Part shown: positions 2,958 to 32,103 of the stretch, one piece after another
Numbering within the stretch: position 1 is the first letter of the stretch
How the letters are laid out: every line of letters starts with the position of its first letter
Origin: a virus
DNA: 32,103 bases
IMG/VR virus record: IMGVR_UViG_3300021963_000430
Coordinates: 1-32,103 of that record
Reading direction: 5' to 3' (one strand)
Notes under the pieces: generated by a model
The model's database searches: none
Seen by the model: the letters and a program-made list of their open reading frames with translations, nothing else
What the model was told of the DNA's origin: nothing
Position numbers and translations under genes: made by a program

Positions 2958-3887
2958 ATGTCACACGACATCGAGGGTGCTGGCCTCTCCCTAATCCGCC
3001 AGCAATACGAGAGCGAGACGCAAGTCGCTCGCTCCTACGGCCAGAAGGTCTCTTCTGGTTCTCACGCCCACGAATACACGGTCAAGTCTGTCCCGCTCTA
3101 CACGGCTGACGGCAAGCCCGCTAACGCTTGGGGCAACCAGCGTTCCGACAATGGCATCATCATCGGTGTCACATCGGAGCGTTACGGCATCGTCCAGAAC
3201 TCCGCATTCACCGACTCCATCGAGACTGGCTTCAATAGCCTTGGTCTTGAGCCGAGCAAGCGTGAGGCCATCGTCACCCGCTGGGGTGCAAGGTCGCACA
3301 TCGAGTACGAGTTCAATACCCGCACCGCACAACCCGCCAAGGGTGACACGGTTGCGTTGCGTATCATCGCTCGCAACTCGTTCGATGGCACGAGCAAATC
3401 GTCCATCAGCGTTGGTGCTGTCCGCTTGGTCTGCCTTAATGGTATGACCTCGTTCCGACAGGACTTGTCGATGTCCGTGCGACACACCACCAATGTGTCT
3501 CCCGCATTCGTCACCCGAGTCCTGCAACAGGCGATGGACGAGTGGTCTGAACTGAATGCAGTTTGGGCCAATATGAGCCGTGTCGGCATCTCGCAACAGC
3601 AGGGCTACACCATCATCGACAACCTCACGAAGCGTGGCATCTATGCCGAGCGTTTCGCCAAGGCCGTCACCGATGTGTGGGCACACCCTACCTACCGAGA
3701 AGACGAGTCTCGCAACATCTGGAATCTGTACAACGCTCACACGCAAGTGCTGACGCATAACTACGGCATCCAGAAGTACGAGATGACTCAACGCTCTGGT
3801 CATAACATCGTGTCCTCCCTCCGTGGTGCGGCACACAACGAGGCCGAGTTCCTGTCGCTGGTGACCCCAGTCGACATCAACAACTGA
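2958..3887 (+). CDS. DUF932-like phage/plasmid protein
   Basis: A 309-residue protein starting at the ATG behind an A/C leader. It carries the landmarks I associate with the DUF932 family (the phage/plasmid-like protein TIGR03299 group): ERYGIVQNSAFTDSIE near residues 75-90, GDTVALRIIARNSFDGTSK in the middle, VRLVCLNGMTSF near 155-167, and SVRHTTNV soon after. These match the family pattern of YGxVQN, an NSHDG-like turn and VRxVCxN followed by a His-containing strand. The biochemical function of the family is unknown; it is common in early regions of phages and on plasmids. All but one of its arginine codons are CGN (one AGG, no AGA), unlike the late genes. A strong hairpin follows the stop codon. 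Confidence 0.8.
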   Translation: MSHDIEGAGLSLIRQQYESETQVARSYGQKVSSGSHAHEYTVKSVPLYTADGKPANAWGNQRSDNGIIIGVTSERYGIVQNSAFTDSIETGFNSLGLEPSKREAIVTRWGARSHIEYEFNTRTAQPAKGDTVALRIIARNSFDGTSKSSISVGAVRLVCLNGMTSFRQDLSMSVRHTTNVSPAFVTRVLQQAMDEWSELNAVWANMSRVGISQQQGYTIIDNLTKRGIYAERFAKAVTDVWAHPTYREDESRNIWNLYNAHTQVLTHNYGIQKYEMTQRSGHNIVSSLRGAAHNEAEFLSLVTPVDINN

Positions 3888-6853: not shown

Positions 6854-6929
6854 GCCACTGTAACTCAATCGGCAGAGTACCTGTTTTGTAAACAGACGGT
6901 TGTCGGTTCAAGTCCGACCAGTGGCTCCA
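6854..6929 (+). tRNA. tRNA-Thr(TGU)
   Basis: A complete cloverleaf: acceptor GCCACTG (6854-6860) with CAGTGGC (6919-6925), discriminator T and encoded CCA (6927-6929); D stem ACTC/GAGT; anticodon loop TTTGTAA with TGT at 6887-6889; T arm GTCGG-TTCAAGT-CCGAC. The anticodon stem CCTGT/ACAGA has one outer C-A mismatch. TGT reads the threonine codon ACA, which is more common in the late genes than in the early ones. An HNH endonuclease gene begins five bases after the CCA end. Confidence 0.93.
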
Positions 6930-8269: not shown

Positions 8270-9886
8270 GTGAGCGACCTTTCCTCGTTCAAGCCGACTC
8301 CGCATCCTGTAATTAAGATGCCAGATGTCAAAATGCTCGTTGAGCGTTTTGGTTTGGACAAGACCGCAGAGATACTTGAACTGAGAGAGGACAAGATACT
8401 TGCAGAGCAGTTAGACCCCTATCGTCACGGCTTTGAACCAGACCATTGGAAGGAAGCAGACCGACTGATAAAGGAAAAGCAAGAACTGCTCGTGCTTGGA
8501 GGCAATCGTGCTGGCAAAACGGAGTGGATGGCAAAGCGTGTCATCCAAACCTTGATAAATAAGGAAAAGGCAATGGTCTGGTGTCTGCACACAACGCAGA
8601 AGTCCAGCATTCAGATGCAACAGAATGTAGTCTGGAAGTATATGCCTCCAGAACTAAAGAACTGTAAGAAGACAAAAGTAACTAACATCGCTTACTCGCA
8701 GAAAAACGGATTCTCTGAAGAGTCGTTCATTTTGCCAAATGGGTCTCAGTGTGTGTTTATGAATTACGCACAGAAGCGAGATGTCATCGAAGGTGGCGAG
8801 TGCGACCTTATATGGTGCGATGAACTTGTGCCGATGGACTGGGTTGAGACGCTACGCTACCGTATTGTGACTCGTAGAGGGAAACTGGCGATTACATTTA
8901 CGCCAATTGCTGGATATTCGCAGGTTGTTAAGGAGTTTGTCGCTGGTTGTACCTTCAAAAGTTGGATGAAGGCCGACATTTTAGACCCAAACAATGTATA
9001 TGTCGGTGGAATACCTCGTGGACATATGCCGTTTACAGCAGAGTGTCATCGAAACAATGGTTCGGTCATCTGGTTTCATTCTCAACTCAATCCTTACAAC
9101 CCATTTGACGAACTTGTTAAGACTTTGGATGGCAAAAATCTGTACGAGAAGAAAATTCGTGCTTATGGATGGGCTGACAACACTGTCGGAAATCAATTCC
9201 CTAGATTTGGAGACAATCACATCATAGATGAGTCAGCAGTTCCAGAAACTGGGACTAATTATATGGTCACAGACCCTGCTGGAGCAAGAAATTGGTTTAT
9301 GCTATGGGCTAGAAAGGCTGATGATGGAAACCTTTATGTCTACAGAGAATGGCCCGACATATCATATGGCGAATGGGCTTTGCCTAGTGAAAAGGCAGAT
9401 GGCAAAGAAGGTATAGCACAGAGAAATGGGGCTGGTATGGGCATCGATGACTACAAACTTTTAATTGAAAAACTAGAAGAGGCTGATGAAGAGGAAGTTA
9501 TGGAAAGATATATTGACCCTCGTGCAGGAGCGACCCAAGCGATAGGTAGAGATGGAGGTACATCGGTTATTGAACTGCTTGATAGTGGAGAAAAGCCTAT
9601 GTACTTTGCTCCAGCCGCTGGAATAGCAGTTGAACAGGGAGTTTCTATGATTAATGACCTGCTGGCTTATAATATGGGAGAGCCCATATCCCCCCTCAAC
9701 CAACCCAAACTATTTGTAACTAAAAATTGCAAAAACCTCATATACTGTCTTAAAGAATGGACAGGAGCAGACGGAGATAAAGGTGCAACAAAAGACCCAA
9801 TAGACTGCCTTAGGTATTTAGTTGTAATGCAACCAGAATTTATAGACAATAAAACTAATATAAACAATACACCCTTCTCTTACTAA
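8270..9886 (+). CDS. terL: Terminase large subunit
   Basis: A 538-residue packaging motor, a typical length for the family. The ATPase half has Walker A GGNRAGKT (residues 77-84), Walker B CDLIWCDE (178-185) with the catalytic Glu, and the coupling motif TFTP (209-212). The nuclease half has RNase H-like acidic residues in VTDPAG (D335), YIDPRAG (D416) and KDPIDCLRYL (D509 or D512). It translocates DNA into the prohead through the portal and cuts concatemers. The start is a GTG directly after the previous TAA; no upstream in-frame alternative fits. It ends in a TAATG overlap with the portal gene, the usual packaging partner. No frameshift or missing motif is seen. Confidence 0.95.
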   Translation: MSDLSSFKPTPHPVIKMPDVKMLVERFGLDKTAEILELREDKILAEQLDPYRHGFEPDHWKEADRLIKEKQELLVLGGNRAGKTEWMAKRVIQTLINKEKAMVWCLHTTQKSSIQMQQNVVWKYMPPELKNCKKTKVTNIAYSQKNGFSEESFILPNGSQCVFMNYAQKRDVIEGGECDLIWCDELVPMDWVETLRYRIVTRRGKLAITFTPIAGYSQVVKEFVAGCTFKSWMKADILDPNNVYVGGIPRGHMPFTAECHRNNGSVIWFHSQLNPYNPFDELVKTLDGKNLYEKKIRAYGWADNTVGNQFPRFGDNHIIDESAVPETGTNYMVTDPAGARNWFMLWARKADDGNLYVYREWPDISYGEWALPSEKADGKEGIAQRNGAGMGIDDYKLLIEKLEEADEEEVMERYIDPRAGATQAIGRDGGTSVIELLDSGEKPMYFAPAAGIAVEQGVSMINDLLAYNMGEPISPLNQPKLFVTKNCKNLIYCLKEWTGADGDKGATKDPIDCLRYLVVMQPEFIDNKTNINNTPFSY

Positions 9887-13412: not shown

Positions 13413-14444
13413 ATGGCAAGTCTAACAGAAAGAAATATCGTCTCTGGTAAGCGGGAAGCCCTCGCTGATACCATCTCACTCGTGGATGCTAAGTCCACTC
13501 CGTTCACATCAATGGCTCCGAAGGTTGCAAAACCAGGAAATACGCTGTTCCGCTGGCAGGTTGATTCCCTCCCCTCTGTGTCCGCTGAACAGGCTGGCAT
13601 CGTTGACGGTACGGATGTTGACCCGAATGGGGCTCAGATTAAGAACTATGTCAAGGATGGTGCTACCCAGTACCGCTATGAATTGTCCAACCACATTCAG
13701 ATTTTCAGAGAAAGCACTCGTGTGTCTCCTCTGACAACTGACATCGCTGTGGTTGCTGGCGTTCGTTCGGAACTGTCAAACAATGTCGCTAAGGCTACTG
13801 AAACGCTGAAGCGTAAGATGGAAAAGACCCTTTGTTCTGCTAACCTTCCGAAGGCCGATGACGGTGCTTCACAGGGTTATGCTACTCGTGGTCTTGATTC
13901 GTGGATTAAGAACGACTTCACAGGTGATGCTTATCTTCCTGTGCCTACAGCGTTCCGTACTCCTACTTCATCCATCTCGACTGTCGGTACTGCCGCTCTT
14001 GATGAGGCTGTTGTCCAGAATGTTCTGGCTTCCGTCTTTGAACAGCAGGGTCGTCCGCAGGAGTTTGACCTCCTTGGTGGCTACAAGTTGAAGCAAGCCT
14101 TCACTGCTCTCACCTACACAACTAGACAGAATGCCAACACGAATACCGCCTCGGTTATCCGTACCCTCAACAGAGAGTCGGAAAAGAGCGTGTACAAGTC
14201 CAGCATCGATGTCTTTGAAGGTGACTTTGGTTCTATTCGCATCCACACCTCTCTCTTCCTCAAGAACAACTTCTGCGGTTACCTGCTGAACTTTGACTTG
14301 GTTGGAGTTGGCTACGGAGGCAATATCGCTCAAGTCAAGGAACTGACGGACAATGGTGGTGGCCCTGCCAGAATGGTCGAGGCTATCGCTACTTGCATCG
14401 TCAAGAATCCTCTCGGTCTTGCGAAGTTCGACTTCACGACCTAA
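13413..14444 (+). CDS. Major capsid protein (DUF5309-like)
   Basis: A 343-residue protein in the scaffold-capsid position. The N-terminal pattern GKREALADTISLVDAKSTPF, then LFRWQVDSL and a DGTDVDPN loop, followed by YRYELSNHIQIFRESTRVS, is the one I know from DUF5309 proteins, which are HK97-fold coats of short-tailed phages. The helix KATETLKRKMEKTLCSAN fits the spine helix region, and the C-terminus (CIVKNPLGLAKFDF) ends in the typical hydrophobic strand. The codon use is nearer to that of the early genes (more CGN arginine than in neighbours), consistent with high expression. No Shine-Dalgarno sequence is present; an AT-rich leader ATATATACTACT precedes the ATG. Confidence 0.85.
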   Translation: MASLTERNIVSGKREALADTISLVDAKSTPFTSMAPKVAKPGNTLFRWQVDSLPSVSAEQAGIVDGTDVDPNGAQIKNYVKDGATQYRYELSNHIQIFRESTRVSPLTTDIAVVAGVRSELSNNVAKATETLKRKMEKTLCSANLPKADDGASQGYATRGLDSWIKNDFTGDAYLPVPTAFRTPTSSISTVGTAALDEAVVQNVLASVFEQQGRPQEFDLLGGYKLKQAFTALTYTTRQNANTNTASVIRTLNRESEKSVYKSSIDVFEGDFGSIRIHTSLFLKNNFCGYLLNFDLVGVGYGGNIAQVKELTDNGGGPARMVEAIATCIVKNPLGLAKFDFTT

Positions 14445-15589: not shown

Positions 15590-15897
15590 TGTCCTCATCA
15601 TTCACTACATTCTCCAGTCCAGCACTGCGTAGGTTTAGCACCACGCAAGTTGCTACTAGCACAACCAAGACTCAAGTTCTTACACCTCCTGCCAACATTA
15701 CAACAAGGCGTATTGTTCTCCTTGTTCAGAACACATCCACAACCGATACGGTTCAGTTGATGGGTAATGCTACCGATACCGTTGGTGTGGTTCTTCCACC
15801 TCAGTCTCAGTTCTCGCTCGACAACTATAACGGTGGTCTTTGGGCTGTTGCTGACTCTGGTACTCCCGCAATCAACATCACAATTGGTTCTGTCTAA
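15589..15897 (+). CDS. Small beta-rich virion protein (102 aa)
   Basis: The start is in a TAATG overlap after the connector gene and the end in another. The 102-residue product is rich in Thr/Ser/Val, with alternating strands such as TRRIVLLVQNTSTTDTVQLM and FSLDNYNGGLWAVADSGTPA, and has no cysteine or membrane segment. It looks like a compact beta sandwich of the sort used for head decoration or for small tail-tip parts. I do not recognise a named family. Its tight coupling with connector and nozzle genes argues for a structural role. Confidence 0.7.
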   Translation: MSSSFTTFSSPALRRFSTTQVATSTTKTQVLTPPANITTRRIVLLVQNTSTTDTVQLMGNATDTVGVVLPPQSQFSLDNYNGGLWAVADSGTPAINITIGSV

Positions 15898-16286
15898 TGA
15901 GCATTAATGTTTCTACAGGCGTGATGATTCCAGCCAATGTGTTGGAAGTCGGAAACGAAATATCTGCTGACCAACTTGCGGCTATTCAGAACGCTTCTAT
16001 GGCTTCTGCCGCAAATCCTTTGGTCACCAAGGATAAGGCTTTGGCTAACGCCTTGGCTTCTATGGTTCAATACGCTTTTGATACAGGTACTGATTCAAAC
16101 AGAACCGCTTGTGGCATCTCAAATGCAGGTATACTTGCTGGAACAGGCTCTTTTGCTGGAATCTGGGATGGCACATCCGCATCTTGGGGTTTCCCTTCCA
16201 TCTATACATCGGCAAACAACAGTTCAACTCAGACGCTTTATGTTATCGTGAATAGCACCCTTTCAGACTTCAAAATCCAAAACTAA
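15897..16286 (+). CDS. Hypothetical virion protein (129 aa)
   Basis: A 129-residue protein beginning in a TAATG overlap. The first half is Ala-rich and helical (SADQLAAIQNASMASAANPL; KALANALASMVQYAFDTG). The second half is Gly/Ser-rich and beta-like (GILAGTGSFAGIWDGTSASW; SSTQTLYVIVNSTLSDFKIQ). A short helix plus a sandwich could be a head fibre, decoration or minor tail protein. No known domain is recognised. The TAA stop is one base before the ATG of the 39-codon membrane-protein gene. Confidence 0.7.
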   Translation: MSINVSTGVMIPANVLEVGNEISADQLAAIQNASMASAANPLVTKDKALANALASMVQYAFDTGTDSNRTACGISNAGILAGTGSFAGIWDGTSASWGFPSIYTSANNSSTQTLYVIVNSTLSDFKIQN

Positions 16287-22661: not shown

Positions 22662-25600
22662 ATGTCCGAAATTTCTTATTCTAGTTCAGAAGAACTCCGC
22701 AGATATGCATCTCAGATGGGACTAAGGTTGCCAACTGAAGAGGCCATATCGAATCCAGAAGTTCCTTTGCAAAATGAGCAGAACGCAGACATACCAGCCG
22801 AAATTCCAGAAGAGTTCAAAGGTGAATATTTGGCTGAGATGGACAAGCGTTATGGTCACTTGGGCTATGTTATGCCCTTTGAAGACTATCAGATATACAA
22901 AAAGTTTTTGGATAAGAAGAAGGTCTCGATGTGGAATACCATCGGAGAAGCGGTTGCCGCAACTACTACAGACCTAGCAACTGGTGCTTGGGAACTAACA
23001 AAAGACACAGCAACGCTAAAGGTTCCTAAGGTCGTAGGCTCAACGATTGAAGGTGCGGCTGTAGGTACGAAGAATTGGTTGTATATGTATGAGCAAGCCA
23101 AGTACGACAAAAACTCTTGGCTTAGTAAGATGTTGTTTGACAACCACGCAACGCCAGAGGACGAGTACCTGTCTTATCAAGAAGCGTTGAAGGTTCGTGA
23201 GATGATACACAAAGACCAGAACGAAGGCATCTGGGTTCCGCCTAAGGTCAATGTTGGCGGTATGGAAATAGACCTAACAAACCCTGCAGTTGTTCAAGCA
23301 ATCTCATATGTAGCAGACCCTTCTTGGCTTATTCCTAATCTTGGAGTAGAGTCTGCCATCGCAAAGGGGATGAGAGGTGCTACAGCCGCAGTTGGTCTTG
23401 GTGAAAACCTAACGAAGGCTAGTGCCTATGCACTAAAGAAAGCGTCTCAAGGTTTCGGAAAACTTGGAGATATGGGAGAGACTATCTCCGCAAAGATTGC
23501 CAAGGTTGACAAGGGTGTTGGAGAAGTGATGTCTGATATGACTGGTCACGAACATCACATTACAGCACAGGGCAAAATCCAAGGTAACGAAGGTCTTGTC
23601 CGTTCTGCCGAAAGTGGTCTTGGCGTGAACAAAGTCACAATTCCTGCTTGGGCTCAAGTCTCAATGGTTTGGGGTGGTTCTAAACTAACAGAAGGCATTG
23701 GTCGGCTTGGTGAAACTACATTCAAGTTAGCCGCAGAAGAATCAAAGATTGCAGGTATGGCTCTGTCTGAGCGTGTAGCCCTTGAGTCTACGAACAAGTC
23801 AATCCAGAAGGTCGCCACATTCTGGTCTCAAAATGCCACTCCTTTTGTTGAATGGGTTACTAATACAACAAAGGTTGGTCTTCACTCTTCAATGTATGGT
23901 GGTGCTTTTGGCTTTGCTTTCGGAGGAGAAGAAGGTCTTTACCACGGACTTGGAACTGGTTTTGTTATTGGCTCCGCTTTCAATCAGATAGGTGTTCTTC
24001 ATAACACCGTGTCTGGCGGTGATGCAGTCAAAGATACTGTTAAGCAGTTCCTCTGGGCTACCAGCCACTACGACTTTCACAATCAAGAAGGCGTAATGCG
24101 TTATCTCGAGAATGCATATGCTGAAGGTGGAACTAAGGGACAACTTAGAGTTATGTCTCAGATAGCCGCCGCCGAGCGTCTGCTTCCAGACGACCCTATT
24201 CGTATCCTTACGGAAAAGAAGATTAAGGAGATGTCTACCAGCATCGAATGGGATGCTTACGAAAGACAGAACCTTGCAAACCCAGAGTTCGGTGGCATCA
24301 CTTTTGTGAAGAACAAGGATGGCAAATCTGTTATCCTTATCAACGCCGACAGAGCCGCTAGGTCTGCTGTATCTGAAGAGACATTCCACGGATTGCTTCT
24401 GACTAAGCGTTACGGCAAGGAGTTCTCAAAACACGCAATTGATGCACTTGTTGGAACGGAAGATAAACTTGGTGCGTTGTACAGAATGCCCAAGGATAAG
24501 GCTGTTGCTCTCCTTGAGCAGTTTAGAGACCAGTATTTCAACTTGGAGAAGAGTACCACAGGACATATCCCAGAAAATATGTCTGGTATGTACAAGAAGT
24601 TTAATGATGCCATAGAGCGATTTAAGGGTGGAGAAAAGCCTACAGTACTGAATGGATTCTTTGAAGAGTTTATGGCCTCTTATTGGAATCGGTTTGTCGA
24701 GGAAAAGCCATTGGACTATTTGCTCAAGGGAGGAGACCTTGGACTCATCAGAAACGCCATAGAAGGAGCAAAGGACTTCTATCGCAACACGATGGCAAAA
24801 GACTTGCAGGAGGCTGGCGTTCAGTTGGTCAAGGGAGAGACGGCAGATATGTTCCTTATAGACCAGAATACGAAGCAAAGAGTCAGAATTCCTATTCTGG
24901 AAAAACTGATGAAGCATTATGTTAAGGAACTTAACAGCGGAATGTATGATGGCTGGGCGTTGAACAACAAGAAGTATGCAGACACCAATACGCTTCTTAA
25001 CAGCGATTTTGACCATCTCTTGAGACAGGATGTCGAAAGTGGAACTGTCGTTCCCAAGAGCCTTGCAGAAGTTGAAAAGGAAATGCAGGGAAGAATTGCC
25101 GCTCTTGCTGAAGCATTGATTAACCTTCCTAAGGAAGACCGTGGCCTCAGACTTGATTTGATGAACGAGTCTGGGGAAAGCGTTGCACAGTTCCAGCCAG
25201 CAAAGCCACGCAAGAAGAAGCCTAAGAAGGAAGTTCTCCCAGAAACAACTAAGCCTTCAGAAGCCATAGACCTTCAAAAGGAAAGGGCTTGGTTCGAAAA
25301 GCATAGACGCAAGTTCTCTGGAACTGATGTTACACCTTCAGACCTTTCTGAACTTGGCCCTAAGAAGGGCGGCAAGCCAAGAAAGGTAGAGCGAGAAGCA
25401 GGTACAGGAAGATGGAGTTTGGAGAAGGAAGGTGATTTCTGGGAAAGCGTTTGGCAGGGCAATCCTCGTGTCAGAATAACAGGTCTCGCCACGCCAAAGG
25501 AGATAAGCCTCTTTGAGCAATACCTTGGTCAACATACAGCGGCTAGACTGCGTGAATTGAATTTGGTCATTGAAACATCTAGGGCTGGAAGAACAGACCA

Positions 25601-28600
25601 GATTTCAAACATTATCCGCTCTACTGTAATTACCTACGAGAAAAGCACAGAGGACGGAAGAGAGCAGGGTCGATTTGTTGAAGAGCGTAGGTTTGTACCT
25701 CTTGAACTCAATATGTACTTTAAGGCAAAGCCGAAGGGTAAGCCTAAGGATGGAATACAAAAGTATGTGGTTGGAGAGGCCAGACTTCTTGCAACAGTGT
25801 TTGATTGGGATGCATATCTGCGTAGAGAAGACTTTATCTACAACAAGATAGATGACGGAGAACTGCATTTTAAGGGTGTCAGAAACCTGTTTGCTACACA
25901 GCAAAATCTCAGAGAGTCAGTTAAGGCTTTGTTGAGCAATTACAGCCTTGGCAACCACGCAGAGGCTGGTCTCAAGTTGTTTTCTAGAGGAAGAGGCGGG
26001 GAAAGAGATGCCGCCCTTAAGAGAGACATTGTCAACGCCGCCATTGGTTTCCACCCGACCAAGGAGATGATGAAGAAGAGAAGGTATAAGAACACGCCTC
26101 TCGACTTCCAGATGCGTGAAGCAATGCCAGAGACCTTCAATGTAGTTAAGAGTTTCCGTGTGGACAGAATGTCTGGAGTAAGAGCAGAAAACGGAGAAGG
26201 TTTTAGATATGACCACAACGAGGCTTACAAACGAGTACAGGCCAACTTCTCTCCTGCAATCACACGCAGAGACAACAACGGACACATAATCCCTGCAGGT
26301 GCAGGTCATATAATCAAAGACACAGTTTACAGAAACAAGGAAGGTGAACACATCGCTGTGTACGGACTGAGAACTCCTTCCTCTGAAATACTGGTTCGTG
26401 CTGACAGAAGTAGGGTTTTTGATTATGTTGACGAAGGGCTTGCCGATAGTATGGAAGCATCAATTCCTAGCCTTAGAGGTAGCCAGTACACCTCCAAGAA
26501 TGGATGGCTTCACTTTACTCCAGACATCTACGAGGCAGGTTTCTTTGAAGACAAGAAGATGCGTGTCGGTTATATAGACTCGCAAAGCCACTTGGACATA
26601 TCTGACATTCCGTTTGGTACTGATATGCGTACAGCCGTTAGCACGGTTGCCAGCCGTATTGCTGAAACAACAGGCACTCCTATAGGCAAGGTAACAGAAG
26701 ACCTTTTGCGTATGAAGGACGATAACGGAAGACGCATCTTTGATACCTTCCAGAAGGACACAGACCCTATTTCTTCATCTATGCCTACGATGGATGAATG
26801 GCTGATGACGGCTAACAGCAAGAAACTGTTTAGAGATTATGGTATACACTCGATTGGATATAAGAACACAAACCCGATAACTGGACACGAGTACAGTTCA
26901 GTCGCTGTGTTTGAACCCAAGCGGTTTATCGAAAACAGACAGGTTAAAGGTCTTAACGACTTTATGTTCCAGCCGTCAAAGACGATTGGAGACAAGTACA
27001 AGGAGATGGTCAAGAAGGCAGGTTCTGACGACATCACAGCACTCCTCAAGTTCAAGATAAACGAGCAAGGAGAAGTTGTTCCTCGTGACAAGTTTGAACA
27101 CCAAATCACTGAACAGTCCATAAGAGATGTAGTTAACTTCAATGAGATGCTTGTGTCTGATGCATTAAAGTATCTTAAGGACGAGAAGGTCTTTACGCAG
27201 GAAACATACAAGCGGTTCAAGGAGACAATGACTCCAAAGGTCGCTCAAGTTCTCCGTGAAAGATTTAAGTCTGCACCCAAGGAAGTCATCGATAAGATAG
27301 CCCAGTTCTCGATGGATGGGTATGCTACCTATGTTTCAAGCCTTGCCGTTGCCAACAGACAGATTTCACCGTTTGGCAGAGAAACATACATACCGAAGGT
27401 GTCGCTTAATGCTGACTCTGCCTTGATACAAAACGCATCTAAGTATGGCATAACTCCAAAGACTCTTGCCGAGACTGGCATACCTTCACTTGGACACTGG
27501 GTTGAGATGTCTGAGGGAGAGTATATGGCACTCAAGAACTACAAGAATTGGGGTAAAACTCTGGAGTTCGTAAAGACGAATAGAGAACTTGAAGCAAACA
27601 AGAAGATTGCTGAACTTGAAAAGAAGGGAACAGGATATGGAAGAAGACTTTCTAAGACAGAAAGAGACGCTATCAGAGTTCCTTTGTTTGACATAGAGTC
27701 GATGAGAACAGAGGCGGTAGAGCGTATACTTAGAGAGAACAATGGAATTGCTGGCCTAGTAGACAATATGGCGGAGCGTCAGAAACAGTTGGTGTTCTTG
27801 GTTGATGCTTCAATCCTTGGAACAGGAAAGATTGGAGATGACAACCTTGTTCTGTCTACATACGCAAAGAACAGAATGATGGAGGCGTTTATGAAACGCA
27901 ACATAGGCTTTGCCAGACAGTTGATAAAGACCGAGCGTGGATATGCCAGACAAAGTATGCAGGAAATTGTTACAGCATATGATGCCATAGTTACATCTCG
28001 TCGTGACATTGCTGGTGAAGCATCTGAAGCGTGGGCTATGTGGGATAGACAAAACAGGGAAGTACAAAACATCATATCTGATGACGCTAAACAGCGTATC
28101 TTAGATTTCCTTTCCGCTTACCACATCAAGGATGTTAACCCAGAAATACTGGATAAAATCAGAGCAAAACTATACGATGAATCAGCAAAGGGCTTCATAG
28201 AACTTGGCACACCAGAAGCCATAGCAAGAAGCGTTGAGTTGTATGCCTTCTTTGATGCTGGAGGAAAGAGCAACTTGGCAAGAATCAGAGAGTCTATAAA
28301 GCGTAACTACATAGAATCCATCAATGCTCTTGAAAAGGAAGGTTTTTACGGAGTCAGATGGCAGAGCAAAGACCTCTCAAAGTCAGACGGCAATGTTGCC
28401 ATAAACGAAACCGTCACGATTAAGAATGTGAACAGGGCGTGGAATTTTGATGGCACTCACCTTACGGTTATCGAGAAGATAAGCGACAAAAACCCTTCAG
28501 AAAAAATCCTCACTCTACACGACAAGGATGGAAATGTTCTTATGAGAAAGAACTATCAGTCTCGTGTGGAAAAGCAGACAAAGGACAACCAAGGGACTTT

Positions 28601-31600
28601 CTTGGTGGAACTTCCTCAGAGCATAATAGATGAAAAGGTTGACTTGTTCCTGCAGGAAGCAACGCAGGTTGTAAGAAACAAGATAGGTACAGGAGATATC
28701 CCTGCACAGCAACTTATTGAGGGGCCGTATCAAGAAGTTAAAGGCAATATGAAGAACCTGTTGCTTGAGATTGCCAAGACCAAGAGAGGGTTTATGGGTC
28801 AGTCTTCAAACGACAGATACAGACTCTACAGAAATGGCGACTATTTCATAGCACAGGAAATCAACAACGAACTTGGCTTTGATGTCCCATCAAGAATCAA
28901 GCAACTTGAGGAACAACTTGCGTCTGGAAAAGCCAACGCAAGCAGACGCATAACTGATGCAGAGCGTATAAACATAACCAACAGGGTTAACAAGATAGAG
29001 GAAATCCTATCTCAGTCTAAGTTCGGAAATCCCCAAAGAGAACAGGAACTTAGGATTGAGATGGGAAGATTGAACGAGCAGTTGGAAAGCGGAACAAAGA
29101 AGTCCGACAAACTCAGCAAGACACAGGAACTTAGCATAGACGAAAAAGTAAAACTCAGAGATGAGATTACTAGACTTAAGAAGTTCCAGACTCAAGACCT
29201 TGGCTTCTCCTTTGTCATAGACAAGAAGTACAACGCTGAAATATTAACATTCAAGTTTGGTTCTCTTACTGAGCGTAACACTGAACTGACAAAGATGGTC
29301 ACGCATAAGGGAAGAGGTTCCAATGCGGCTTTCGAGAAGTTTGCAGAAAAGGCGTTCCTTGAATTCAACCAGTTCCTCAACGGTCAGCGTCTGAAGGAAA
29401 TGAACAGACTTGGCGTAATCCTTGGAGAAGGTACACACAAGGACAGCGTCATACCTCAAATCCGTCAACTTATGGACAAGTTGAACGAGATGGAAAAGGT
29501 TCAGAGAGGCTTCTACAACACAGAAAAGAAGCGTATAAACAACGAGCGTAGGCTTAACGGACAAAAGCCTCTTGAAGAGAAGAAGATTGTAGAGCAAATC
29601 AAGAAGGACTTGGATGCCTTGGACGATGCATCTATCGAGGCTGAAGCAATGCACCTTGCGGCGGCAGAACAGTTGTTCCAGTTGAATGTTCTCGATAAGA
29701 TGAACGGAATGACTCCAGAGCGTGTCGAGGAGTTGCTGTATCGCATTTCCGCAAAGAGAAGAGAAGTAGACCTCAATCAGTACCATATGCCTGTTCCAAA
29801 GAACAAGGATGTCGTTGGTATGATAGGTGAACTTCAGCGGTCTCTTGTTGAAAACGGAAACAAGTTTGCCGTGCTTCAAGACAAGTTCAACCAGATGCAC
29901 GATGGTTTGTACGGAAGGAGCGATGAACAGGCGGCGATAAAGGAACAGATTGGTTTCCTTTCAAGACGCTACCTGTATGCAAAGGGAATCAAACTTAACG
30001 CAAAGAGACAGTTCATAGAACAAGCAACCCTCCACGACTTTGATGTGGTGTCTAAGTTCGACTATATGAAGTTGCGTACTATGAGACCGCAGGGGGATGG
30101 AGTCTCTTATGGAGAGCCGTCATACCTAGTCGATGTTGATGGTGTGCTTGGCAGGGGACACGAGGAATACAGAACGACAAAGGACTACACTGACGAGTTT
30201 AAGGCAAGGCTCGTTGAACTGAAGTCATATTATGACATCGGACTTACGCAGGGAGACCTGTCCATAAAGAACATCCTTGGTATAGAACTTACTCCTGCTA
30301 ACACTGATATATCAATACACCATCATCTCAGAAACAGGCTTACACAAAAGAACCTTGGCGATGAAGGTTACGCTTGGGCTAACGACCCTCGAAACAGAAA
30401 GTTCATAAAGTCGCTTGATACGGACATTATGGAGGGACGCATTGACCACAACGAGGCAGTACAGCGTATAAAGGATGAACAGATTATATCGTCCATAGGT
30501 AAGGATGGAGTTGACTTGAAGGACACCGTACAGGCTATGAGCGATACAATCGAGAAGATTGCCATCGTTGCAAACAGGCTGAACCTTGCACATAGAGGCA
30601 TAGAATTGGTTGATATGAACTCTGACATACAGAGCGAGTTCCCTATGTTCAGAAAGTACAGGGCTGAAATACCGAAGGACATACCTAAACTTGAGACTGA
30701 ACTTAAGAAACTGAGAAGCCTTAAGACATCTCTCAAACAGCGTTACGAAAATATTCTCAAAAAGGCTGGAGACGACAAAGCACCTCCAGAGTTCAAGCGT
30801 CTTGTTGCCGAGTACAGGCACATAGATTATAGGGAAGCCATTGCAAAGAAGAACACAAAGCAGGACAGACAGCGTCTCCGTGAGATGGAGAAACTCAGAA
30901 AGTCTAGCATCAAAAACCTGTTCAGACAGTATGACGATTTTGCAAAGAACCTAGGAATGAAGGGCATAAGAGACTCACGGCTTGAGATACATCCGTCTGA
31001 CCCAAGAACTCAGTACATAGCATACGCATTCCCAGAGATAAGCAGTGACTTCTTCCAGTCTTCTTGGAGACAGTGGGACTTGAATACATCTAGCCCAGAA
31101 GGACATCCCAACGCTGGTATAGTTGGAGGCAGGGACTCACTGCCAGAAGCAGGAGCATTGCCCAATGCAAACCCTGCGATAAAGGCTTGGACTTCTACTG
31201 TTGGCCCAGAAGTAAGACGCTTCATTTCGCAGGAAAGCAGGGACTTGAAGAGACCTGTATACCTTGCGGACTACATACATTTTGCACACGCAAAGAGAGC
31301 ATACCACGAAAGAAATCCGTCTATGCCTATGTCTGCGGCTGACGCACACCTTCTTAAGTTCTTCTTCCCTAGGGAGACATCTCGTGGACTTCTTGCGGAC
31401 AAGATTAACAGAGTGCCAGAGGAGAAGATGAAACAGCACGAGGCTTATACCAACGGCATACTTGATAACCTAAAGAGTTCTACAGAAAGGGAACGCTTTA
31501 TTAGGTCATTCGTAGTAGATGCGTTGGATTTGATTACGGACAATGGAGGACTTAGAGAAGCCGCACTCAAGAAACTTAAGCAGATGTCCGACGCTGAGTT

Positions 31601-32103
31601 CAAGCAGTGGAAGGAACAGAACCCAGACTCTGTTGACAGAAGCCTAAACACGATTGAGGTGCTTGAGCAGTCTATGTATCTGCTTAAGAACGGTGTAGTT
31701 ACCGTTGGAAATAAGGGCGATAGGTTCAACTACAGAGACAGCATCCACACCACACTTAGCAAGGAAGACATTGATAAGATATATACAATTGCTGAAAAGA
31801 AGTTTGGTATAAGTAAAATTAGAGACAAGTGGGTAGAAGTTAAGGACTCAAATGGCGTTAAGAGATTGCAAAAAGTAAAGGCAGAAGATACTATTAAGAA
31901 GGTCACTGCAGAAATGGAACTATGGGTTCAAAAGCAGATTGACCAAGGGATAGTGGAAACTACGCCAAAGGAACTTAGACCTATACTAGCCAGAAGAAAG
32001 TCTCCGTTCATCACAAGAAGCGACATAGGTCACATTCCTGTTGACTCTCTTGTGCGTATGCAGGGCTTTATGGATGTCTGGAAGCAGGAGGTTGCAAAGC
32101 ATA
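22662..32103 (+). CDS. Giant virion/polyvalent protein, 3' end outside window
   Basis: ATG 22662 opens a frame with no stop in 3147 codons; the gene runs off the window, so the product exceeds 3147 residues. It fills the T7 gp16 position but is at least 2.4 times that protein's 1318 residues. Seen in order: hydrophilic N-terminus; Gly-rich hydrophobic stretch (residues 406-447); SEETFHGLL, like a zincin site lacking the first His (E573, H576); a basic linker KPRKKKPKK (about 848); an ADP-ribosyltransferase-like stretch (about 1250-1440) with LHFTPDIYEAGFF, DYGIHSIGYKN and GHEYSSVAVFEP (E1410); coiled coils at 2066-2182, 2277-2374 and 2660-2765. No N-terminal transglycosylase or RNA-polymerase motif is recognised. 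It is probably packed in the head and ejected. Codons are AGA-rich. Confidence 0.85.
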   Translation, partial: MSEISYSSSEELRRYASQMGLRLPTEEAISNPEVPLQNEQNADIPAEIPEEFKGEYLAEMDKRYGHLGYVMPFEDYQIYKKFLDKKKVSMWNTIGEAVAATTTDLATGAWELTKDTATLKVPKVVGSTIEGAAVGTKNWLYMYEQAKYDKNSWLSKMLFDNHATPEDEYLSYQEALKVREMIHKDQNEGIWVPPKVNVGGMEIDLTNPAVVQAISYVADPSWLIPNLGVESAIAKGMRGATAAVGLGENLTKASAYALKKASQGFGKLGDMGETISAKIAKVDKGVGEVMSDMTGHEHHITAQGKIQGNEGLVRSAESGLGVNKVTIPAWAQVSMVWGGSKLTEGIGRLGETTFKLAAEESKIAGMALSERVALESTNKSIQKVATFWSQNATPFVEWVTNTTKVGLHSSMYGGAFGFAFGGEEGLYHGLGTGFVIGSAFNQIGVLHNTVSGGDAVKDTVKQFLWATSHYDFHNQEGVMRYLENAYAEGGTKGQLRVMSQIAAAERLLPDDPIRILTEKKIKEMSTSIEWDAYERQNLANPEFGGITFVKNKDGKSVILINADRAARSAVSEETFHGLLLTKRYGKEFSKHAIDALVGTEDKLGALYRMPKDKAVALLEQFRDQYFNLEKSTTGHIPENMSGMYKKFNDAIERFKGGEKPTVLNGFFEEFMASYWNRFVEEKPLDYLLKGGDLGLIRNAIEGAKDFYRNTMAKDLQEAGVQLVKGETADMFLIDQNTKQRVRIPILEKLMKHYVKELNSGMYDGWALNNKKYADTNTLLNSDFDHLLRQDVESGTVVPKSLAEVEKEMQGRIAALAEALINLPKEDRGLRLDLMNESGESVAQFQPAKPRKKKPKKEVLPETTKPSEAIDLQKERAWFEKHRRKFSGTDVTPSDLSELGPKKGGKPRKVEREAGTGRWSLEKEGDFWESVWQGNPRVRITGLATPKEISLFEQYLGQHTAARLRELNLVIETSRAGRTDQISNIIRSTVITYEKSTEDGREQGRFVEERRFVPLELNMYFKAKPKGKPKDGIQKYVVGEARLLATVFDWDAYLRREDFIYNKIDDGELHFKGVRNLFATQQNLRESVKALLSNYSLGNHAEAGLKLFSRGRGGERDAALKRDIVNAAIGFHPTKEMMKKRRYKNTPLDFQMREAMPETFNVVKSFRVDRMSGVRAENGEGFRYDHNEAYKRVQANFSPAITRRDNNGHIIPAGAGHIIKDTVYRNKEGEHIAVYGLRTPSSEILVRADRSRVFDYVDEGLADSMEASIPSLRGSQYTSKNGWLHFTPDIYEAGFFEDKKMRVGYIDSQSHLDISDIPFGTDMRTAVSTVASRIAETTGTPIGKVTEDLLRMKDDNGRRIFDTFQKDTDPISSSMPTMDEWLMTANSKKLFRDYGIHSIGYKNTNPITGHEYSSVAVFEPKRFIENRQVKGLNDFMFQPSKTIGDKYKEMVKKAGSDDITALLKFKINEQGEVVPRDKFEHQITEQSIRDVVNFNEMLVSDALKYLKDEKVFTQETYKRFKETMTPKVAQVLRERFKSAPKEVIDKIAQFSMDGYATYVSSLAVANRQISPFGRETYIPKVSLNADSALIQNASKYGITPKTLAETGIPSLGHWVEMSEGEYMALKNYKNWGKTLEFVKTNRELEANKKIAELEKKGTGYGRRLSKTERDAIRVPLFDIESMRTEAVERILRENNGIAGLVDNMAERQKQLVFLVDASILGTGKIGDDNLVLSTYAKNRMMEAFMKRNIGFARQLIKTERGYARQSMQEIVTAYDAIVTSRRDIAGEASEAWAMWDRQNREVQNIISDDAKQRILDFLSAYHIKDVNPEILDKIRAKLYDESAKGFIELGTPEAIARSVELYAFFDAGGKSNLARIRESIKRNYIESINALEKEGFYGVRWQSKDLSKSDGNVAINETVTIKNVNRAWNFDGTHLTVIEKISDKNPSEKILTLHDKDGNVLMRKNYQSRVEKQTKDNQGTFLVELPQSIIDEKVDLFLQEATQVVRNKIGTGDIPAQQLIEGPYQEVKGNMKNLLLEIAKTKRGFMGQSSNDRYRLYRNGDYFIAQEINNELGFDVPSRIKQLEEQLASGKANASRRITDAERINITNRVNKIEEILSQSKFGNPQREQELRIEMGRLNEQLESGTKKSDKLSKTQELSIDEKVKLRDEITRLKKFQTQDLGFSFVIDKKYNAEILTFKFGSLTERNTELTKMVTHKGRGSNAAFEKFAEKAFLEFNQFLNGQRLKEMNRLGVILGEGTHKDSVIPQIRQLMDKLNEMEKVQRGFYNTEKKRINNERRLNGQKPLEEKKIVEQIKKDLDALDDASIEAEAMHLAAAEQLFQLNVLDKMNGMTPERVEELLYRISAKRREVDLNQYHMPVPKNKDVVGMIGELQRSLVENGNKFAVLQDKFNQMHDGLYGRSDEQAAIKEQIGFLSRRYLYAKGIKLNAKRQFIEQATLHDFDVVSKFDYMKLRTMRPQGDGVSYGEPSYLVDVDGVLGRGHEEYRTTKDYTDEFKARLVELKSYYDIGLTQGDLSIKNILGIELTPANTDISIHHHLRNRLTQKNLGDEGYAWANDPRNRKFIKSLDTDIMEGRIDHNEAVQRIKDEQIISSIGKDGVDLKDTVQAMSDTIEKIAIVANRLNLAHRGIELVDMNSDIQSEFPMFRKYRAEIPKDIPKLETELKKLRSLKTSLKQRYENILKKAGDDKAPPEFKRLVAEYRHIDYREAIAKKNTKQDRQRLREMEKLRKSSIKNLFRQYDDFAKNLGMKGIRDSRLEIHPSDPRTQYIAYAFPEISSDFFQSSWRQWDLNTSSPEGHPNAGIVGGRDSLPEAGALPNANPAIKAWTSTVGPEVRRFISQESRDLKRPVYLADYIHFAHAKRAYHERNPSMPMSAADAHLLKFFFPRETSRGLLADKINRVPEEKMKQHEAYTNGILDNLKSSTERERFIRSFVVDALDLITDNGGLREAALKKLKQMSDAEFKQWKEQNPDSVDRSLNTIEVLEQSMYLLKNGVVTVGNKGDRFNYRDSIHTTLSKEDIDKIYTIAEKKFGISKIRDKWVEVKDSNGVKRLQKVKAEDTIKKVTAEMELWVQKQIDQGIVETTPKELRPILARRKSPFITRSDIGHIPVDSLVRMQGFMDVWKQEVAKH

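Follow-up and report, generated by a model that had tools for sequence, protein, structure and literature searches.

The window analysed here, a 32,103-nt stretch of viral DNA (positions 1 to 32,103 of the IMG/VR record IMGVR_UViG_3300021963_000430), ends inside a giant gene whose product has 3,614 residues. We consider it likely that this protein serves a short-tailed phage as its third and largest ejection protein, polyvalent-like in character, and that it is probably carried in the head and from there threaded into the cell. Most of the known giant ejected phage proteins are RNA polymerases, as in N4, or shuffled antirestriction and polyvalent proteins, as in JC1 and P1. The giant would be a further case of an ejected protein of this size, for which no named relative was found and most of whose length matches nothing known.

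The giant gene and the cassette that precedes it

The initial annotation described a single frame that stays open from 22662 to the window edge, with more than 3147 codons. Both points are correct. The frame starts with ATG at 22662 on the forward strand, is free of stops through base 32102 and runs off the edge of the window at 32103. At the local base composition, 3,147 codons would stay open by chance with a probability of ~10^-86, and the other two forward frames of the region contain 157 and 245 stops. The extension past 32103 that the annotation had proposed was achieved through contig L002 (IMGVR_UViG_3300021962_011557), which is 99.84% identical to the window over 5,646 nt and carries the frame to its stop. 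Window and contig together give the full length of 3,614 aa, with one residue differing in 1,880. A sequencing error hiding stops, named at the outset as a possible refutation, is countered by this near-identical separate contig and by contig L003, where the gene is likewise one single ORF (3,558 aa, 77% protein identity to the window giant). The ORF is thus not a sequencing artefact. Contig L004 was considered as the missing right end of the genome and rejected; it belongs to a relative (92.5% identity over 483 aa).

In record G027, which is syntenic with the window, genes like the first ones of the window recur 12.7 kb beyond the point in the giant at which the window ends. The genome is therefore ~44.7 kb long by this synteny, and the 3,614 codons occupy ~24% of it. 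In two relatives, of 44.1 and 46.3 kb, the giant or its partner is split across the two ends of the contig, the pattern expected of a complete genome that is circular or permuted.

Pattern and profile scans of IMG/VR yielded ~20 contigs with a giant of the window type (~19 besides the window). Several are near-duplicates (hhalign's own filter kept 15 of 20), so the independent lineages are fewer than this. Giants with both ends measure 3,467-3,738 aa. BLAST alignments of new to earlier members run nearly end to end at 33-59% identity with no rearrangement, and all members tested are colinear, with a fixed order, along ~3,500 residues. The "modular appearance" noted in the initial annotation fits the sister family described below, the middle of which is variable, but not the window family. 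Between the window and L003, dN/dS is 0.10 over ~3,100 codons (dS 1.56, near saturation), and substitution is strongly constrained. A translated search of 50,697 named phage records with residues 501-3146, the N-terminal 833 residues or a sister protein found no relative. Bacterial genome contigs were also scanned for a prophage carrier of the giant, and none was found at the sensitivity of that search.

The gene order is terminase, portal (728 aa, assigned by position), a scaffold-like gene, SU10-type capsid and small genes, followed by genes for proteins of 538, 395, 141, 280 and 722 aa and by the giant (Table 1). Wherever the relatives allow the order to be read, three ejection-sized genes precede the giant, which comes last. 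The stop of the 722-aa gene overlaps the start of the giant (TAATG) in most relatives listed, whereas the window has a short gap instead. The cassette sizes of 141, 280 and 722 aa are indeed near those of T7 gp13, gp14 and gp15 (138, 196 and 747 aa), as had been pointed out. The giant is likewise in the position of T7 gp16 and P22 gp16, each the last gene of a gp14-gp15-gp16-like cassette; gp16 proteins of the T7/P22 type have 609-1337 aa in a review table, compared with 3,614 aa here (PMC8954989). Beyond this a T7 framework is not supported. The capsid is of the SU10 type, the four cassette proteins match no T7-type PHROG, and T7 gp16 has no profile match to the giant (hhalign below 1%; no PHROG match in 11 members). 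The label "gp16 slot" given in the initial annotation therefore holds by position only. No Pfam match in the giant corresponds to the N-terminal transglycosylase domain of T7 gp16, a domain that is absent in P22 and Sf6 (PMC8954989). For the membrane-spanning regions of T7 gp16, the one candidate counterpart in the giant is its conserved glycine-rich hydrophobic hairpin (Table 1).

Two further features lie upstream of the terminase gene. One is a tRNA-Thr gene with anticodon TGT (6854-6929), and the other, in the early part of the window, encodes a DUF932-family protein (2958-3887; PF06067 E 3.5e-22; phrog_1221).

Table 1. Coordinates of structural genes in the window and of elements within the giant (residue numbers refer to the giant protein).
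Feature	Position	Strand	Evidence or remark
Terminase large subunit	8270-9886	+	PF03237 E 4e-7
Major capsid protein, SU10 type	13413-14444	+	PF17236 E 2.5e-40; phrog_1328
Head-closure/stabilisation-like protein, 538 aa	16407-18023	+	phrog_3287 E 1.2e-10; phrog_578 Hc3 E 2e-4
gp13-sized protein, 141 aa	19210-19635	+	conserved
Candidate outer-membrane pore (gp14 position), 280 aa	19635-20477	+	conserved in both families; role by position
Candidate periplasmic tunnel (gp15 position), 722 aa	20485-22653	+	homolog in 14 of 14 relatives searched
Giant gene, first 3,147 of 3,614 codons	22662-32103	+	stop ~1.4 kb past the window, equivalent position 33506
N-terminal module, residues 1-1205, common to sister family	22662-26276	+	hhalign E 1.2e-41
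Glycine-rich hydrophobic hairpin, residues 404-450, glycine-zipper-like, candidate membrane element	23871-24011	+	in both families
Altered zincin motif EETFH, residues 572-576, aligned with sister HE[LI][FY]H	24375-24389	+	alignment of 19 + 10 sequences
EEF, residues 668-670, candidate third metal ligand region	24663-24671	+	at least 93% invariant in both families; putative ligand role
FQPAK, residues 844-848, first and least conserved boundary-motif copy	25191-25205	+	
NFSPA, residues 1195-1199, boundary motif at end of common module	26244-26258	+	N[FHY]SP[AS] in 20 of 20
FMFQPSK, residues 1434-1440, boundary motif	26961-26981	+	FxF[SQ]P[AS] in 19 of 20
Putative cargo region, residues 1206 onward, order fixed in family	26277-32103	+	colinear in relatives
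Coiled-coil region, residues ~2560-2730	30339-30851	+	profile matches to coiled-coil proteins only; long helices in model

The N-terminal module, the sister family and the peptidase site

A sister family occupies the same gene slot as the giant in 10 contigs. It was first met in the 88-kb record G002 as a distant homolog of 2,586 aa, and a search with the N-terminal part of this homolog gave a set of 10 proteins, nine of them complete (2,501-3,396 aa) and one cut by a contig end. Comparison of the two families by hhalign gave a probability of 100 and an E value of 1.2e-41 over residues 46 to ~1205 of the window giant (~1,150 residues). The last ~50 residues are probably common to both families as well; compared one against one, they gave a probability of 86 and an E value of 5.5e-6. 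Between these two parts, profile comparison found no match between the families. The extreme C-terminus of the sister proteins, ~70 residues in L084-L093 (WKNAVGWMI...FKVYNPQKAM.GIY), resembles that of the giant family, with the preceding regions unmatched, and is possibly a common docking or export tag. The N-terminal module was also compared with the slot proteins of BroderSalsa, HTVC106P and C75C1, and no homology was found.

The C-terminal part of the sister proteins varies in length, and their middle is variable. An ART-like domain is recognisable in them by comparison with the ART of Roseovarius Plymouth podovirus 1 (E 1e-4). GNAT acetyltransferase families are matched by some of the members, at best with E 2.4e-15. 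With its HExxH motif, its ART-like domain and, in some members, GNAT, the sister family has the layout of a polyvalent protein.

The most conserved 50-residue block of the giant is the glycine-rich hairpin. Across 28 sequences from the two families, nine of its glycines (413-437) show at least 93% invariance. The peptidase site lies downstream of it. HE[LI][FY]H is present in each of the 10 sister proteins. In the window family the aligned residues read EETFH, EELFH, EELLH or, once, AEFFH; the first histidine is replaced by glutamate in 18 of 19 members and by alanine in one, and no member has HExxH there. E573 and H576 are at least 93% invariant across the 28 sequences of both families. The catalytic glutamate and one ligand are therefore kept, and the first ligand is replaced. 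Judged from the HExxH of the sister family and the alignment to it, the domain of the window family is probably an altered, non-canonical zincin, and ordinary zincin catalysis by the EExxH domain is unlikely. The zincin-like HExxH metallopeptidase is the commonest domain of polyvalent proteins, present in ~36% of them, and has been proposed to process these proteins (Iyer et al. 2017, PMC5512222). The two families thus form a pair in the same slot, one with the protease motif kept and a variable middle, the other with an altered motif and a fixed order. With this pair, the proposed processing of polyvalent proteins by zincins after injection can be tested directly.

In record G002 (IMGVR_UViG_3300010970_000150) a window-type capsid gene goes with a sister-type giant, and a sister-type capsid gene with a window-type giant. 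This cross-pairing suggested a swap of giant genes between capsid backgrounds. However, the two 44-kb halves of the record have an exact run of 2,311 bp in common (L006 2580-4890, L081 4455-6765), and the pairing is consistent in the other records that contain both genes (capsid identity to that of the window 82-96% in the window family and 55-61% in the sister family). G002 is therefore most likely an assembly chimera of two fused ~44-kb phages, and the swap was rejected. A separate observation concerns a 129-aa gene at 15897-16286 of the window, which is 93% identical in the sister-family locus L090 and present in 0 of the other 12 loci compared. The genes near it in L090 are ~46-59% identical, and a 102-aa neighbour is 74% identical. 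This pattern suggests a recent transfer within the structural module.

Boundary motifs and the putative cargo region

A motif of the FSPA/FQPA type recurs at residues 844, 1195 and 1434, the latter two copies in nearly all members, at a frequency above that in shuffled sequences. The copy at 1195 falls about where the homology between the families ends. The sister family has a repeated motif of its own, of the [FYW]KV[SDN]D type, with 3-5 copies in five of eight tested proteins and none in the other three; not one of 500 shuffles reached the 3-5 copies of those five. These motifs may be processing sites, in line with the proposed role of the peptidase (PMC5512222). Such sites would suit a polyprotein-like precursor from which cuts at the FSPA/FQPA motifs would release individual virion or effector proteins, and the intact HExxH of the sister family, together with its own repeats, favours this as well. 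The zincin motif of the window family, however, lacks its first histidine, and the sites are few, two or three along 3,600 residues and confined to the first 40%. We regard such a precursor as quite improbable.

From residue 1206 onward no Pfam, PHROG or PDB sequence match was found, and no effector domain was identified in residues 1206-3614. Profile searches had been proposed in the initial annotation; across 11 giants they returned no Pfam match and no PHROG match, tail and fibre profiles included. The coiled coils it mentioned are supported around residues 2560-2730. An ADP-ribosyltransferase was spotted by eye at residues 1210-1434, and this reading was dropped after profile comparisons against two sets of ARTs returned 0.2%.

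The AlphaFold model of residues 455-1470 is of low confidence (mean pLDDT 55). With this model as the query, Foldseek found five significant matches among viral models (E 1.5e-13 to 4e-5). Two carry the label of a large polyvalent protein associated domain, and a third is labelled for a NAT_SF domain. We treat these matches as supporting evidence only, since the query model is poor. The C-terminal model had no significant match in the viral library. No convincing match came from PDB structure searches with the two low-confidence models: the lowest Foldseek E was 0.34, with the first model as query, and VIA-align Z did not exceed 5.8. Here an absent match carries no weight.

Proposed role and competing explanations

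The initial annotation offered two alternatives, an enlarged last ejection protein or a polyvalent protein carried in the virion. Both appear to hold at once, because the giant gene closes an ejection-type cassette and its product is related to polyvalent proteins. The steps that we propose follow from its position, its homology to an effector-bearing family and the precedents of T7 and N4/DEV; in the latter the third ejection protein is a giant of ~3,500 residues (PMC12633501). The giant would leave the head with or before the DNA, and its 280- and 722-aa neighbours would form the outer-membrane pore and the periplasmic tunnel. Its N-terminal ~1,150 residues may anchor at the inner membrane via the glycine-rich hairpin, with the altered zincin domain adjoining, and dock beside the tunnel of the two neighbours. 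The remaining ~2,400 residues, which are rich in predicted helices where modelled and have the short C-terminal module at their end, could cross into the cytoplasm or stay attached, as a fixed machine or an effector. A more specific and tentative reading is that of a distinct ejection machine, polyvalent in type, with HExxH changed to EExxH and ~2,400 residues of fixed cargo unlike any known domain. A quarter of the 44-kb genome would then be an undescribed injected machine or enzyme.

The N-terminal module is homologous to that of a family in which ART and GNAT domains occur, and two viral-model matches are labelled as polyvalent-associated. Both points would also suit a protein that is a polyvalent effector only, which disarms host defences, has no role in the channel and is dispensable in laboratory hosts, as is possible for antirestriction proteins. 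Yet the giant is present in every relative searched, with the same upstream partner alongside, and it fills the last ejection slot without a second large gene of this kind intervening. Its fixed colinear order is unlike that of shuffled effectors, and its glycine hairpin is conserved. For these reasons we find the effector-only explanation unlikely. Large phage genes near tail genes often encode fibres, and an external virion protein (fibre, spike or adhesin) was considered on this ground. The giant follows ejection-sized genes, however, matches no tail or fibre profile and is homologous to proteins with enzyme domains of the intracellular type, all of which make an external location very unlikely.

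The third, giant cassette member of N4/DEV (gp50, Schitoviridae; PMC12633501) has the same size and place as the giant, with N4 genes of 150, 644 and 3,500 aa in the order seen in the window as 280, 722 and giant. A virion RNA polymerase of the N4 type, diverged beyond recognition and transcribing early genes after injection, would account for this likeness. A profile of the five vRNAP domains found the N4 vRNAP at E 1e-131 as a positive control and gave only 0.2% probability against 11 giants (hhalign). The full N4 and RPP1 proteins did not match the giants, and the vRNAP Pfam domain, readily found in RPP1, is in no member. The polymerase identity was thus rejected by a profile comparison with a working control, and we consider it exceedingly improbable. 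The genomes differ in size too (~70 kb for N4/DEV, ~44 kb here). The HExxH of the C-terminal C1 domain of N4 has no counterpart in the window giant or in 18 of the 20 members; in L054 and L055 a non-conserved HEAKH occurs at ~3245.

The reading as a polyvalent-like ejection protein agrees with other known systems in part. Like polyvalent proteins (PMC5512222), the giant is very large and multidomain and is encoded among virion genes on the same strand as terminase and capsid, and its N-terminal module is homologous to a family with HExxH, ART-like and GNAT domains; it differs in its EExxH, in having no recognisable effector domain and in its fixed order in place of shuffled modules. The DarB-like JC1 gp69 (4,515 aa, 22% of the genome) is the last giant gene of a podovirus virion module and was found in virions by mass spectrometry (PMC9144972). 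Compared by domain matches, gp69 has helicase-type domains (HepA superfamily) and the window family none; the helicase/methylase-type domains of Bcep22-type DarB-like proteins likewise have no Pfam match in the window family. SU10 (Kuravirus) resembles the window by its capsid, which is of the same Pfam family; it is set apart by its description, with five ejected proteins, one with transglycosylase activity, and a genome of 75-80 kb (PMC9509320). No known ejection protein matched the giant in sequence. If the giant is ejected as proposed, it reopens the question of how a ~400-kDa protein threads through a podovirus tail. C75C1 (L036, OQ984151; 39.5 kb), which has a related capsid, carries two very large genes after its head-closure gene that have no detectable sequence relation to the giant, with products of ~2,769 and ~1,343 aa.
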